Virus record (IMG/VR): IMGVR_UViG_3300044833_000124
Span: 1 to 33,641 of that record
DNA from: a virus
Strand: one strand, 5' to 3'
Length of the DNA: 33,641 nt
Below are positions 7,627-15,155 of the stretch, piece by piece. Numbering within the stretch: the first letter of the stretch is position 1; each line of letters opens with the position of its first letter. Below the pieces are notes generated by a model. The model was not told the origin of the DNA. It ran no database searches and saw nothing but the letters and a program-made list of their open reading frames with translations. The position numbers and the translations under genes are program-made.

Positions 7627-8017
7627 TATAAAAGATAAAAAGAAGAAACCTGGACCTCCTCCGATGCAATTACCATCTCCCGAAACTTTGATGGAAATGG
7701 CAACTCTTGGGCTAAACAAGCAACAAATAGCTTATTCATTAGCAATGAGTTATGAGACTTTCAAGAAGAGATTAAAAGAATCACCGGCCCATGATATCGC
7801 ATATCGCAAAGGTAAAGTTTTGGGCATACAAAAAGTCGCTAATGCGCTATTTGATAATGCGATTGGTAATAATAACTTCAACGCTCAGGCATTTTATTTG
7901 AGATGCAAGGGTAAGTGGAATGATAGAGTGCAAGTGCAACATAATCATACTCATAGTAACGCACGTGACGAATCTAACTCTATAGCACAAGATTATGCTG
8001 ATGCAAAAGATAGATAA
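7601..8017 (+). CDS. terS: Terminase small subunit
   Basis: A 138-residue protein directly before and overlapping (23 bases) the terminase large subunit. It has a basic Pro-rich start (KDKKKKPGPPPMQLP), then a helix-turn-helix (LMEMATLGLNKQQIAYSLAMSYETFKKRLKES) of the type that binds packaging sites, then a helical region (AYRKGKVLGIQKVANALFDNAIGNNNFNAQAFYLRCKGKWND) that is characteristic of phage small terminases. It should form a ring that recognises pac or cos DNA and feeds it to the large subunit. The start could also be ATG 7607. The exact terminase type is not clear. Confidence 0.85.
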   Translation: MSMNTKINNIKDKKKKPGPPPMQLPSPETLMEMATLGLNKQQIAYSLAMSYETFKKRLKESPAHDIAYRKGKVLGIQKVANALFDNAIGNNNFNAQAFYLRCKGKWNDRVQVQHNHTHSNARDESNSIAQDYADAKDR

Positions 8018-9569
8018 TAATGATCTCGTACTTGACCCGATGCATGATGATGATCTAAGACGTAAGTTAATGTTTGATTTTCTTACCTTTGCTAGATTCT
8101 TCTTTAAACGTAAAACTGGTAGACAATTTCAATTATCGCAACCAGACAGTAACGAATCTCACTTTCTAACTATCGCGCGTGAGCTAGAAGATATATTCAG
8201 ACTTAAACATACACGTTTATCTATTAATGTACCGCCTGGTTGGGGTAAGAGTGAACTTTGTAAGGCATTCGTTTGCTGGGCAATGGCTCATTATCCTGAC
8301 AGTAAGTTTTTGTATATATCACACAGCTTCGAGCTTGCGACATTACACACTGCAAGTATCAAGCAAACGATGTGTTTACCACTGTATAAGAAACTATTCG
8401 GTATCGATATCAGGCGTGATTCATCAGCCAAAGATTTCTTTATGACTGTCGAAAGTGGTGCGGTTGCAGCATTCGGATCCCAAGGTGGCATCACAGGACA
8501 CGATGCCGGACTACCGGGACAAAGTAGATTCACTGGCGCAATAATCATAGATGATATTCATAAGCCAGAAGATATTCACTCTGATACTATTAGAGAGCGT
8601 GTTAAGCGTAATTACTTTGAGACGATTGAAAGAAGATTACGATCACCTAATGTGCCAATCATATTAATAGGCCAAAGATTACATGAGGATGATTTACCCG
8701 CTCACATACTAGCTGGAGCAGATGGGCAAGAATGGCGAACCGTGATTATCAAAGCATTAGACGATGTGGGAAATGCTAGATATCCAGAAGTTAATCCTAA
8801 GTCTCAGTTATTAACAATGCGTGAGAAACAACCGTATGTTTTCGCATCTCAATATCAACAAGATCCTATGCCATCCGGCGGTGCGTTATTCAAAGAATCA
8901 TGGTTCCCTAGATTAGATCAAACACCAAATATACTCACGACATTCATAACTTGCGATAGTGCAGAAACAGAGAAAGAATACAATGACGCAACAGTATTTA
9001 GCTTTTGGGGTGTATATAATGTTCGAGTCAATGATAATGTTGTGGATAACTTGTATGCTTTACACTGGATAGATTGTGTTGAGTTACGTATCGAGCCGAA
9101 AGATTTACAGGATGAATTTATAGACTTTTGGTCCCAATGCATGCGTTATCATGTTAAGCCAAAATTCGCTGCGATAGAAAAAAAATCTACAGGAGTTACA
9201 CTGACTTCTGTATTATCTGAGATACAGGGATTAAGGATAATCCCTATCGAACGAACAGGGACGATTAATAGTAAAACTAATCGGTTTCTTGAGATGCAAC
9301 AATTCATAGCTAGCAAATTAATTACATTCCCAGCTACCGGCAAGCACACAGCAATGTGTATCAAGCATATGTCTAAAATTACCGCAAATAATGTTCATCG
9401 ATTCGATGACATCGCAGATACTTGTTATGACGCGATTAAAATGGCCTTGATAGACAGGATCATTATCAATAAAGAGTTGCAGCATACGAATTATGATGTG
9501 CTAGCAAAGGGAATATTTAATAGTTATGACTCGCAAGATCGATTGCGTAAAAAGGCTTATCGGAAATAA
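7995..9569 (+). CDS. terL: Terminase large subunit (packaging ATPase and nuclease)
   Basis: A 524-residue packaging motor. Walker A is PPGWGKSE at residues 80-87, Walker B is IIIDDIHK at 183-190, and a coupling-type ILIGQRLHEDD follows at 223-233. The C-terminal RNase H-like nuclease starts at FITCDSAETEKEYNDA with its first Asp at 321; AAIEKKSTGV and RFDDIADTCYDAI supply the later acidic residues. Length is normal for the family. It overlaps the small subunit. Unusually the portal gene is not next; almost 6 kb of accessory genes lie between. It is followed at once by the first pentamer array. Confidence 0.95.
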   Translation: MLMQKIDNNDLVLDPMHDDDLRRKLMFDFLTFARFFFKRKTGRQFQLSQPDSNESHFLTIARELEDIFRLKHTRLSINVPPGWGKSELCKAFVCWAMAHYPDSKFLYISHSFELATLHTASIKQTMCLPLYKKLFGIDIRRDSSAKDFFMTVESGAVAAFGSQGGITGHDAGLPGQSRFTGAIIIDDIHKPEDIHSDTIRERVKRNYFETIERRLRSPNVPIILIGQRLHEDDLPAHILAGADGQEWRTVIIKALDDVGNARYPEVNPKSQLLTMREKQPYVFASQYQQDPMPSGGALFKESWFPRLDQTPNILTTFITCDSAETEKEYNDATVFSFWGVYNVRVNDNVVDNLYALHWIDCVELRIEPKDLQDEFIDFWSQCMRYHVKPKFAAIEKKSTGVTLTSVLSEIQGLRIIPIERTGTINSKTNRFLEMQQFIASKLITFPATGKHTAMCIKHMSKITANNVHRFDDIADTCYDAIKMALIDRIIINKELQHTNYDVLAKGIFNSYDSQDRLRKKAYRK

Positions 9570-9584
9570 AAAATTTTATATTTT

Positions 9585-9744
9585 GGTGTTGTGCTGAGGG
9601 GCCATCTACTATCCTGTATGATAATGTGAGGTCTGCTGGTGTGAGGTTTTGTGAGGAGCTGTTGTGTATTGCGCGATAATCTGCCGCCTTGTAATGCATT
9701 GTGAGCTGTGTTGGTGTGAAGATTTGTTTTGTAGTCGAAGGTAA
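9585..9744 (+). repeat. 5-base periodic array, upstream copy (32 units, KGYNN)
   Basis: The 205-base gap after the terminase is not coding. Read in steps of five from 9585, 32 consecutive units keep one register. Nineteen fit K-G-Y-N-N exactly (G/T, G, C/T, any, any), and 30 fit with at most one change in the first three bases. By chance about 1 in 16 would fit. Exact misfits start at 9595, 9605, 9610, 9620, 9635, 9655, 9675, 9680, 9685, 9705, 9710, 9720 and 9735. TGTGA occurs five times. Bases four and five vary freely. The register is unbroken by insertions or deletions. Confidence 0.8.
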
Positions 9745-9774
9745 TTTTTTAACTTTAAAAAGGATTTGAATTGA

Positions 9775-10329
9775 ATGATTTTGAATATTGAAATAAGCGG
9801 TGTAACTCCATTATTGATGAATCGTTTTAATATTTCAGAAGTTGATAAGACGGTAAAAAGAGATAAAAACTTATCACCAAGAGAAGAAGCGTCTCTTGTA
9901 TGTTATGAAGATGCCGAAGGAAGATTGTACTATCCAACCTGCAATATTTTCGCATGTATTATCGAAGCAGGTAAATTTCACAAGTCAGGAAAGTTAAAAA
10001 TAACTACAGCTAGAAGCTCGTTAATACCAGCAGGATTAATGATTGAAAAAGAATTTGTATATTTTAAAAGACCATCGACATGGGAAGTAGACAGTCGTGG
10101 TGTTGTCATACCAAGCACTGGTGGCAAGATTGTTAAAAACAGACCTAGATTAGATGATTGGTGTTTAGGTTTCAGTTTAATATTAGATACAAAAATGTTT
10201 ACACCAAAGGAAGTGAGAATGATATTAGATGATGCCGGGAGCAAAGTCGGCTTAGGTGATTTTAGACCGGCTAGAAAAGGTATATACGGCAGATTTGTTG
10301 TAACAGGTTGGGATGAAATTAAGGATTGA
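9775..10329 (+). CDS. RAMP/Cas7-like protein flanked by pentamer arrays, 184 aa
   Basis: This small protein starts with a RAMP-like strand and turn (LNIEISGVTPLLMNRF, residues 3-18). A central part follows with GRLYYPTCNIFACIIEAGKF (49-68), SSLIPAG (81-87) and VVIPSTGGKIVKNRPRLDDW (110-129). It ends in a glycine-rich loop, SKVGLGDFRPARKGIYGRFV (156-175), like the G-rich loop of Cas7/Csm3-type RNA-binding proteins. I know similar proteins as unnamed phage proteins; the RAMP assignment is my inference from this layout. An AAGGA site lies 10 bases before ATG. Periodic arrays with a 5-base unit lie 30 bases upstream and 4 bases downstream on the same strand, suggesting that the protein coats or processes that RNA. 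No Cas or effector nuclease gene adjoins. Confidence 0.65.
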   Translation: MILNIEISGVTPLLMNRFNISEVDKTVKRDKNLSPREEASLVCYEDAEGRLYYPTCNIFACIIEAGKFHKSGKLKITTARSSLIPAGLMIEKEFVYFKRPSTWEVDSRGVVIPSTGGKIVKNRPRLDDWCLGFSLILDTKMFTPKEVRMILDDAGSKVGLGDFRPARKGIYGRFVVTGWDEIKD

Positions 10330-10333
10330 GTCG

Positions 10334-10458
10334 GGCATTGTGGGGCCGGGTAATGCGTGGTCTTGTATGGTGATGTCTTGCGATTTGTTGTCTTTCTTTG
10401 TCAGGTTATGTTCTGCGATGGCAGGTGAAGTGGTGTTTGGTGGGGTGATGTAAGGCAA
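10334..10458 (+). repeat. 5-base periodic array, downstream copy (25 units, KGYNN)
   Basis: The array begins 4 bases after the stop codon of the RAMP-like gene. All 25 units stay in one register, and 21 match K-G-Y-N-N exactly; the four others (starting 10384, 10394, 10419, 10429) each differ at one of the three fixed bases. Examples are GGCAT, TGTGG, GGTAA and TGCGA. The period is not three, the frame is broken by stops, and bases four and five show no fixed pattern. The pattern ends sharply near 10458, leaving about 50 ordinary bases before the next gene. Confidence 0.85.
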
Positions 10459-10510
10459 GGATGAATTGTTAATGCAGATGGACTGATAGCTTTTCAAGTG
10501 AGGTGAAAAT

Positions 10511-10714
10511 ATGTTTTTAGAAACCGTTACTTTTCTTGGTGATGATGTTCTCGTTGCCATTAAAAGAATAAAATATGTAAGATTATCCGGCGGTAATGAT
10601 GGTCATACTATTAAAATAATAGGTGATGATTTTGAATTTGAAGAATATTTCAAAGAACATGAACAAATGTGTTTAAGATATAAATATATTAAATCGATTT
10701 TAAAAGTGAAATGA
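10511..10714 (+). CDS. Small beta-rich hypothetical protein, 67 aa
   Basis: The protein shows alternating short strands (FLETVTFLGDDVLVAIKRIKYVRLS, HTIKIIGDDFEFEEYF) and a basic end (RYKYIKSILKVK). The layout is reminiscent of small FlbD- or SH3-like phage proteins, but I do not recognise a family with confidence. A GAGGTG ribosome site lies 6 bases before ATG. It follows the downstream pentamer array and precedes a run of small phage genes, so it may belong to the same transcript as the RAMP-like gene. Confidence 0.65.
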   Translation: MFLETVTFLGDDVLVAIKRIKYVRLSGGNDGHTIKIIGDDFEFEEYFKEHEQMCLRYKYIKSILKVK

Positions 10715-13658: not shown

Positions 13659-14414
13659 CTAAAAACCTTGTAACATATTAATTTTCAAGTAAGCAGAACT
13701 TGGTGCAGCGTTCGTGCCTAACGTTGGAGAATTAATATTAACAACTGATGAACTTGTATTAGCTAATGTTAATACATCGCCAGCCGCTAATTTCACATAC
13801 ACATCTGCGACAATCTCATTTGATTGTTGTTCAGGTGAAATGGTTTGATTAGCAAAAGTAGAACCAGGGACGAGAACACCATTTTTGAAGAGCGATAATG
13901 TCCAGACTGGTAGTGGGCTTGGGATTGGATTTAATGCACCGCAAATTCCGGTTGCAATATCATACCATCCTGCTTTGTTAACTACGATTTGACCATTAAC
14001 TGACGCATTAGATACATCAATATTAGGAGTTGCATAAATAGTATTTTCTAACAACACTAATCCACCAGCGAGATTTGTACCAGGTGATGCTGCCAATGCT
14101 TGATTTGCTTTGCTATAAACTTCTGCAAATTCAGCATTAGAGCCGAATGGAGGAGGTGGAGGTGTTGGATGTGTATCTCTGCAATTTACACAGCTTCCTG
14201 GGATACCTTGTGGACCTTGAATCCCCATTTCGCCTTGCAAACCTTGTGGACCAGACGGGCCAGCAGCACCTTGGTCACCTTTCGGTCCCATCGGGCCAAC
14301 TGCACCTGGCAAGCCTTGAATACCTTGTACACCTTGCTGACCTTGTACGCCCTGCATGGATGCTGAGCATGGGTCAGTTTTGCATTTACAATCATGATCA
14401 TAATCTTTTGACAT
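13659..14414 (-). CDS. Collagen-like phage protein with C-terminal jelly-roll-like domain, copy 1
   Basis: A 251-residue protein. The N-terminus is Cys-rich ([11 protein letters not shown]), then come 17 uninterrupted Gly-x-y triplets from about residue 22 to 73, then CVNC and a proline hinge ([10 protein letters not shown]). The C-terminal ~150 residues ([35 protein letters not shown] and so on) look like the BclA/C1q-type trimeric beta domain: [38 protein letters not shown]. It should form a rod-like homotrimer. Two such leftward genes sit together. They may be virion fibres, or exported decoys for host surfaces. Signal peptide: none. Confidence 0.85.
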
Positions 14415-14444: not shown

Positions 14445-15155
14445 CTAGTCTGCTTTTATTAACACTATGGAGAAAGACGCTGAATTTATAGCGCAATTAA
14501 CTCCAAAGTGAGAATTATTTAAGATGAGCGGCGCATTAGTCATATTATAAAGTCCTACTTTATCGCCTGCATTCAGGTGGACCAAGAATACAAATGTAAC
14601 ATAATTATTCGCCTGCGATGATGTGATAGTCATATTCGTATCCTGAGATCCGGGGACCAAAACATCATTTACAAAAAGTGAAACACACCATGAAATTAAT
14701 GGCTGACGTAACGGGTTAATCGTGCCATTTATTGATTTTGTTAGTTGATATACACCGGCTTTATTTACAGTGATATCACCAGAAAGATTTGCTTGGGAAA
14801 CATCAATATTGGAAGTACTGAAAACTACATTTTCAAATAAAACTTGTCCGCCCTTTAAATTTAAACCAGGAGATGGTGCGAGTGTTTGTAGTTCTTGCGA
14901 ATAAAGTTGCGCGTATTCATTTTGGTTGCTATCGCAATTCACACATGCTCCAGGAATACCTTGCGGGCCAGTTTGACCCATGACTCCTTGAATACCTTGA
15001 GGTCCAACAGGTCCAGCACTACCTTGCAAACCTTGTGGACCAGCAGGCCCAACAGGTCCGGTCAATCCTTGGATACCTTGAGGTCCTCTTTGACCTTGCT
15101 CGCCTTGCATTGAAGCTGAGCATGGGTTTGGTTTACATCCGCAATCTTTGCTCAT
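14445..15155 (-). CDS. Collagen-like phage protein with C-terminal jelly-roll-like domain, copy 2
   Basis: A 236-residue paralogue of the gene downstream. It has the same order: Cys-rich start ([11 protein letters not shown]), 17 Gly-x-y triplets ending [12 protein letters not shown], and a beta-rich domain ([60 protein letters not shown]). Triplet number is equal in both copies while the triplet sequences differ, so length seems to be selected. A TTAAGGATAG site precedes ATG. It is the first gene of the leftward pair, with a 30-base gap to the other. The C-terminal domain is less similar than the collagen part. Confidence 0.85.

Follow-up and report, generated by a model that had tools for sequence, protein, structure and literature searches.

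The window examined here, a 33.6-kb virus record taken at its full length, very probably carries a phage-borne VIPR (Viral Interference Programmable Repeat) system. In such a system, the RAMP protein Vipr would act on transcribed arrays of KGYNN units, with the NN bases reading DNA and the genes of rivals being blocked. The system is genuine but has been described before. The original prediction took it for an undescribed one, and it corresponds to VIPR as reported in a 2026 preprint (PMC13142463 / bioRxiv 2026.04.26.720920), with the Vipr protein of SUSP1 deposited as PDB 36pp. Literature searches on vrRNA or VIPR in phages found no further description beyond PMC13142463, and a search by description of the layout found no paper. 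The window carries genes for terminase subunits, portal and head closure, and the locus is therefore phage-borne. It is organised as follows:

7995-9569, + strand: terminase large subunit gene (phrog_38, E 5.6e-78), given as context and outside the system.
9585-9744, + strand: KGYNN array upstream of the gene, with 30 units scored to 9734 and then TCGAA GGTAA; candidate for one or more vrRNA guide regions.
9736-9754, + strand: 3' end of this array, CGAAGGTAATTTTTTAACT, similar to the AAGG(T/C)AAGG plus T-run ends of the window's clade, as judged against the first 60 of 86 clade array ends.
9775-10329, + strand: vipr gene, encoding a predicted RAMP (Cas7/Csm3-like) protein of 184 aa.
10329-10463, + strand: KGYNN array downstream of the gene, its 27 units all in one register; likewise a candidate for one or more vrRNA guide regions.
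10450-10465, + strand: 3' end of the downstream array, GTAAGGCAAGGATGAA, a clade-type array end.

As published, VIPR consists of a phage-borne RAMP protein, Vipr, with an RRM core and a G-loop, and of vrRNAs (PMC13142463). A vrRNA contains 9-16 YNNGG repeats, in which GGY is fixed and NN is hypervariable, and has an invariable structured 3' tail. Through its NN pairs, a vrRNA binds double-stranded DNA, one base being skipped per unit, and the skipped target base is frequently the wobble position of a codon. VIPR is directed at competing phages, prophages and satellites, and binding represses transcription. Seven types with a GGY/NN or related consensus are distinguished, some of them with staggered overlapping vrRNAs. 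Six vap accessory genes are named for the seven types; vap is typical, not universal. The SUSP1 system is experimentally programmable via NN, and VIPR is proposed to precede CRISPR (PMC13142463).

Among solved-structure sequences, 36pp is the sole significant relative of the window protein. It was matched at E 1.2e-9 with a single sequence (phmmer). A profile of eight rows matched it at E 2.2e-52, but among those rows was a wV8 protein close to that of SUSP1. No Pfam family matches Vipr, and phrog_4652, whose function is unknown, matches it at E 5.1e-21. The protein contains a conserved glycine-rich stretch, KVGLGDFRP, and the motif GxGDxRP is almost invariant in 16 sequences. According to an AlphaFold2 model built on a 16-row alignment (mean pLDDT 84.9, pTM 0.81), the window protein has a RAMP fold. 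The best structural matches of the model are type VII Cas7 and type III Csm3 subunits, both in Foldseek (best E 7.2e-6) and in VIA-align (Z up to 11.7 over 161 residues). Identity to these Cas7/Csm3 structures is 8-20% among the VIA-align matches listed, and 36pp is absent among the structural matches listed from a library reaching up to April 2026. The original prediction had named the protein RAMP/Cas7-like from its sequence and had proposed a comparison of the predicted fold with Cas7 and Csm3; the model agrees with this.

Two same-strand arrays of 5-base units flank the gene, as had been predicted. In 1000 dinucleotide-preserving shuffles of each flank, the maximum score was 17.8 against the observed 40.1 for the upstream array and 22.3 against the observed 52.3 for the downstream array. 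Whole-window shuffles (n=30) never scored above 12.8 on the + strand, and the window holds no further array at a score of at least 12 on either strand. The upstream array extends from 190 to 30-40 bases ahead of the ATG at 9775, with a few further in-register units to about position 9749; the claim that the arrays begin 30 bases before the start codon was thus wrong. The downstream array begins at the stop codon of vipr. The counts of 32 and 25 units given originally were close to the 30 and 27 that were scored. The K-G-Y-N-N register, which had been called strict, has no breaks but is not strict: G stands at position 2 in 80% of 49 units, the last four units of each window array having been dropped. 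In the same units, position 1 is T in 57% and G in 37% (K 94%), position 3 is T in 73% and C in 20% (Y 93%), and hardly any constraint is seen at positions 4 and 5 (1.84 and 1.91 bits). The low entropy at positions 1-3 arises partly by construction, because the arrays were chosen by their score on these positions. No Rfam family was found in the arrays of 14 sources, where the sole match was a tRNA in locus L008, and promoter-like sites were not more frequent than in shuffles. A 102-codon open reading frame lies antisense to the downstream array (10252-10560, - strand). It is probably not a gene, because it traverses the array.

Lag-5 periodicity beside homologues had been proposed as a check on the original prediction. 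Same-strand arrays are present beside 24 of 24 homologues in a first set (on both sides in 19 and on one side in five), and all of them score above every shuffle (20 per flank). The set spans 74% to about 20% identity and includes Felixounavirus, Mycobacterium and Gordonia phages; two of its members, L001 and L002, are near-duplicates. A wider profile scan gave 167 relatives. Among the best 80 of these, some of which repeat loci of the first set, 78 have same-strand arrays within 2 kb. The other two, L116 and L117, have no detectable array in up to 2 kb per side, L117 having little downstream DNA. Homologues of 23-31% identity still have arrays beside them. Several separate arrays occur at many loci, with a maximum of 17 at a score of at least 14 (L061), and at some loci arrays lie solely downstream of vipr within the 2 kb read. 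Outside the vicinity of vipr, arrays are nearly absent: in the 88-kb genome of phage wV8, a threshold of 12 gives four arrays, all around gene 95. The strongest array is on the opposite strand in L084, L093 and L099 (among the best 80 of 167), and arrays of the GGC type partly score on the reverse strand too, by construction. An inverted array is also seen in L008 (1844-1898, - strand), opposite the 20 same-strand arrays of that locus. Very long uninterrupted arrays occur upstream of vipr in L129 (64 units) and downstream of it in L094 and L101 (58 units each). These may be the staggered overlapping guides of PMC13142463 or single long RNAs.

The NN contents differ even between close relatives. 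Among 29 Felixounavirus-type arrays from seven records with vipr genes 95-97% identical to that of L018, the NN contents are largely different. Only two cross-record pairs share a run of at least five NN pairs, namely a whole array in L018 and L021 (16/16) and a run of six in L019 and L024. Such differences among close relatives are the expected look of guides under turnover.

Vipr, with the homology and fold described above, would polymerise along the transcribed KGYNN arrays. It would hold the K-G-Y bases that are fixed in each unit and leave the NN pairs pointing outward. Successive NN pairs would then base-pair with double-stranded DNA, one target base being skipped per unit as in the published rule; this DNA-reading step is carried over by analogy from PMC13142463 to the window's clade. 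Once bound, the complex would keep genes of a competing phage, prophage or satellite from being transcribed. The two arrays of the window would represent two guide RNAs, or more if they are staggered. The original prediction regarded the two free bases of each unit as open to pairing, which accords with the published role of NN in reading DNA (PMC13142463). Of its two proposals for the ribonucleoprotein, guide or decoy, the guide-like one fits, and nothing was found for a decoy.

Candidate targets were sought in viral contigs with 1-base-skip patterns of nine units from the window arrays. Four gapped-pattern scans matched 0, 1, 2 and 1 contigs. The site-anchored match in L028 was limited to the nine units asked for. 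In L045, ten units match in a row before the match stops, and no open frame of 80 codons covers that stretch. The remaining site is present in L043 (3152-3177, - strand) and L044 (3257-3282, + strand), two contigs that are 95.7% identical and share one site sequence. It matches ten units (20/20 bases), after which the match ends. In the upstream array, whose units are here numbered 0-32, these are units 18-27, near its 3' end, and ten units lie within the published guide length. The match is in codon phase within an 898-codon open frame. A putative tail fibre gene of Roseobacter phage CRP-6 shares 64% identity with the stretch, and the frame has a weak match to PHROG 31 (central tail fibre J, E 0.072). 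Neither the window nor the other loci examined yielded a relative of this frame. The tail-fibre-like site is a weak target candidate for the upstream array, judged from sequence. It is kept weak because the match stops at ten units and because, with about three independent hits, a one-unit extension together with the right phase is not rare enough.

A SUSP1-type guide from L023, used as a positive control against the same viral collection, gave one match that did not extend, and the scan method is therefore without a positive control here. Two guides of L012 matched 0 of 79 genomes of its genus each, at up to three mismatches. When 117 arrays were compared with 414 kb, the only full nine-unit match was L028, itself fetched by that pattern. 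A comparison of 343 arrays with 779 kb of related loci, which left out 36 loci (duplicates, overlapping stretches, pattern-hit loci and one E. coli stretch), gave no match of 19 or 20 of 20 bases. At 1-base skip, the 343 arrays gave 3129 matches of at least 16 of 20, against 2763-2942 in four unit-shuffled sets, and the window's clade did not consistently exceed five shuffled sets. Codon-like composition largely accounts for the excess at a 3-base step, since a 6-base step shows it as well and so, for the most part, do shuffled units. Targets with 5-base spacing were considered and rejected, the matches being self matches and chance-level matches only. An early local skip scan found no target, and array-derived peptides found none among phages by tblastn besides one match at E 6. 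The target tests have little power because the collection scans demanded exact matches and the control guide gave nothing convincing.

The composition of the NN pairs can also be compared with codons. In the clade, it is nearest to codon positions 1-2 in sense (KL 0.139, 843 NN), with values of 0.228-0.337 for the five other codon phases. A consistent codon orientation per guide is absent in the clade (59 guides, p 0.90), and the same test gave p 0.04 for 29 Felix-type guides. The two compositional results, codon-phase likeness and guide orientation, point different ways.

It is conceivable that the arrays are a scaffold or autoregulatory RNA, in which Vipr coats the repeats to control its own mRNA and NN is merely unconstrained. 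TRAP coats KAGNN repeats. The arrays flank vipr, the upstream one ending shortly before the start codon as described, no DNA target was established in the scans, and the codon-orientation test was negative in the window's clade, all of which would suit such a role. Against this, experiments have shown that the homologous SUSP1 system can be programmed through NN (PMC13142463), at many loci the arrays are several and separate, at some they lie only downstream within the 2 kb read, and NN contents are almost wholly different between close relatives. We therefore consider autoregulation very unlikely compared with a guide function in a VIPR system.

The structural matches to type VII and type III Cas7/Csm3 subunits could also indicate a CRISPR effector of the type III or VII kind with an unusual array. 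The RAMP fold is indeed shared with these subunits. In Class 1 CRISPR, however, base pairing is interrupted at every sixth position (PMC13142463), whereas the unit in the window has five bases. There is no direct repeat of at least 18 bases in 9500-10600. Vipr and five nearby proteins match no PADLOC-DB family, Vipr has no Pfam match, and its only significant relative among solved-structure sequences is another Vipr. A CRISPR effector is thus an extremely improbable reading. Tas proteins carry a Nop domain; the window protein matches no Pfam family. TIGR-Tas systems resemble the VIPR reading of the window in RNA-guided DNA targeting, in their presence in phages and bacteria and in tandem guide arrays, as reported in PMC12045711. 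Finally, the flanks are G/T rich, but an origin of the arrays as chance low-complexity sequence can practically be dismissed, since dinucleotide shuffles never came near the observed scores and arrays are retained in distant homologues.

Compared with the described VIPR systems (SUSP1; P. fulva, type II), the window likewise has a phage-encoded RAMP protein of about 20 kDa and long non-coding runs of 5-base units, with a fixed GGY or related triplet and hypervariable NN, on the same strand beside vipr. Its Felixounavirus relatives have about 27% protein identity to the window Vipr. Several features differ. The window units start mostly with T (TGY), whereas those of the described systems start with G, and its runs of 30 and 27 units are uninterrupted, against the published 9-16. 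No vap gene was found at loci of its clade. Furthermore, clade arrays often end in AAGG(T/C)AAGG and a T-run, whereas Felixounavirus arrays lie, by eye, between conserved hairpin-like flanks.

In a FastTree phylogeny of 72 proteins, the window and ten further loci that are at least 60% identical to it form an 11-tip group (support 0.997), which is nested in an 18-tip group (support 0.995) under midpoint rooting. The phylogeny omits 11 redundant or partial loci and one protein with an internal stop. At loci of 60-74% identity, the first base is most often T (0.39-0.65). The first base is mixed at 51-54% identity and is mainly G at 44-49%, as in SUSP1-type systems. In the clade, unit entropy is 1.90 bits for NN and 1.53 bits for the first base. 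Clade arrays mostly have 8-16 units, with exceptions of 17-26 and one fused run of 43; elsewhere in the family, long runs reach 64 units. The window arrays are longer than most in the clade and are without clear internal ends. Under a loose pattern, AAGG(T/C)AAGG or similar is found at 58 of 86 clade array ends, and a T-run at 37 of 86.

No neighbour open reading frame of at least 45 aa is common to more than 3 of 18 clade loci (E 1e-4), in flanks of up to 2.5-3 kb that some contigs cut short and with two redundant loci left out. There is therefore no sign of vap within the flanks examined. The clade may belong to a vap-less VIPR type, which is suggested because PMC13142463 names six vap genes for seven types. 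A terminase large subunit homologue upstream of vipr is also found in L006 and L009. Two paralogous proteins are encoded further along the window on the - strand (13659-14414 and 14445-15155). The first is collagen-like, with Gly-X-Y repeats, a Pfam Collagen match at E 2.5e-10 and a weak BclA C-terminal match, and both match one open reading frame near vipr in L005. Genes for proteins of 146 and 147 residues come immediately after vipr in phage wV8 (L014, 4585-5025) and in Phage DSL-LC04 (L013, 4528-4971), respectively. In SUSP1-type phages, such a gene is probably vap1 of PMC13142463.

The TGY clade could be a functional VIPR variant that works without an accessory protein and uses its long uninterrupted arrays as single guides. 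In that case, 24-30 NN pairs would read 70-90 bp of DNA, well above the published 9-16 units, and the freer first base would perhaps take part in recognition too. We hold this more specific proposal only tentatively and regard it as rather unlikely.

The locus shows that a VIPR system is recognisable from raw sequence alone. It adds to VIPR a well-supported subclade with a TGY consensus, no accessory gene found and long arrays. With these features, the subclade offers a natural test of a minimal system and of the tolerance of VIPR for another fixed base.
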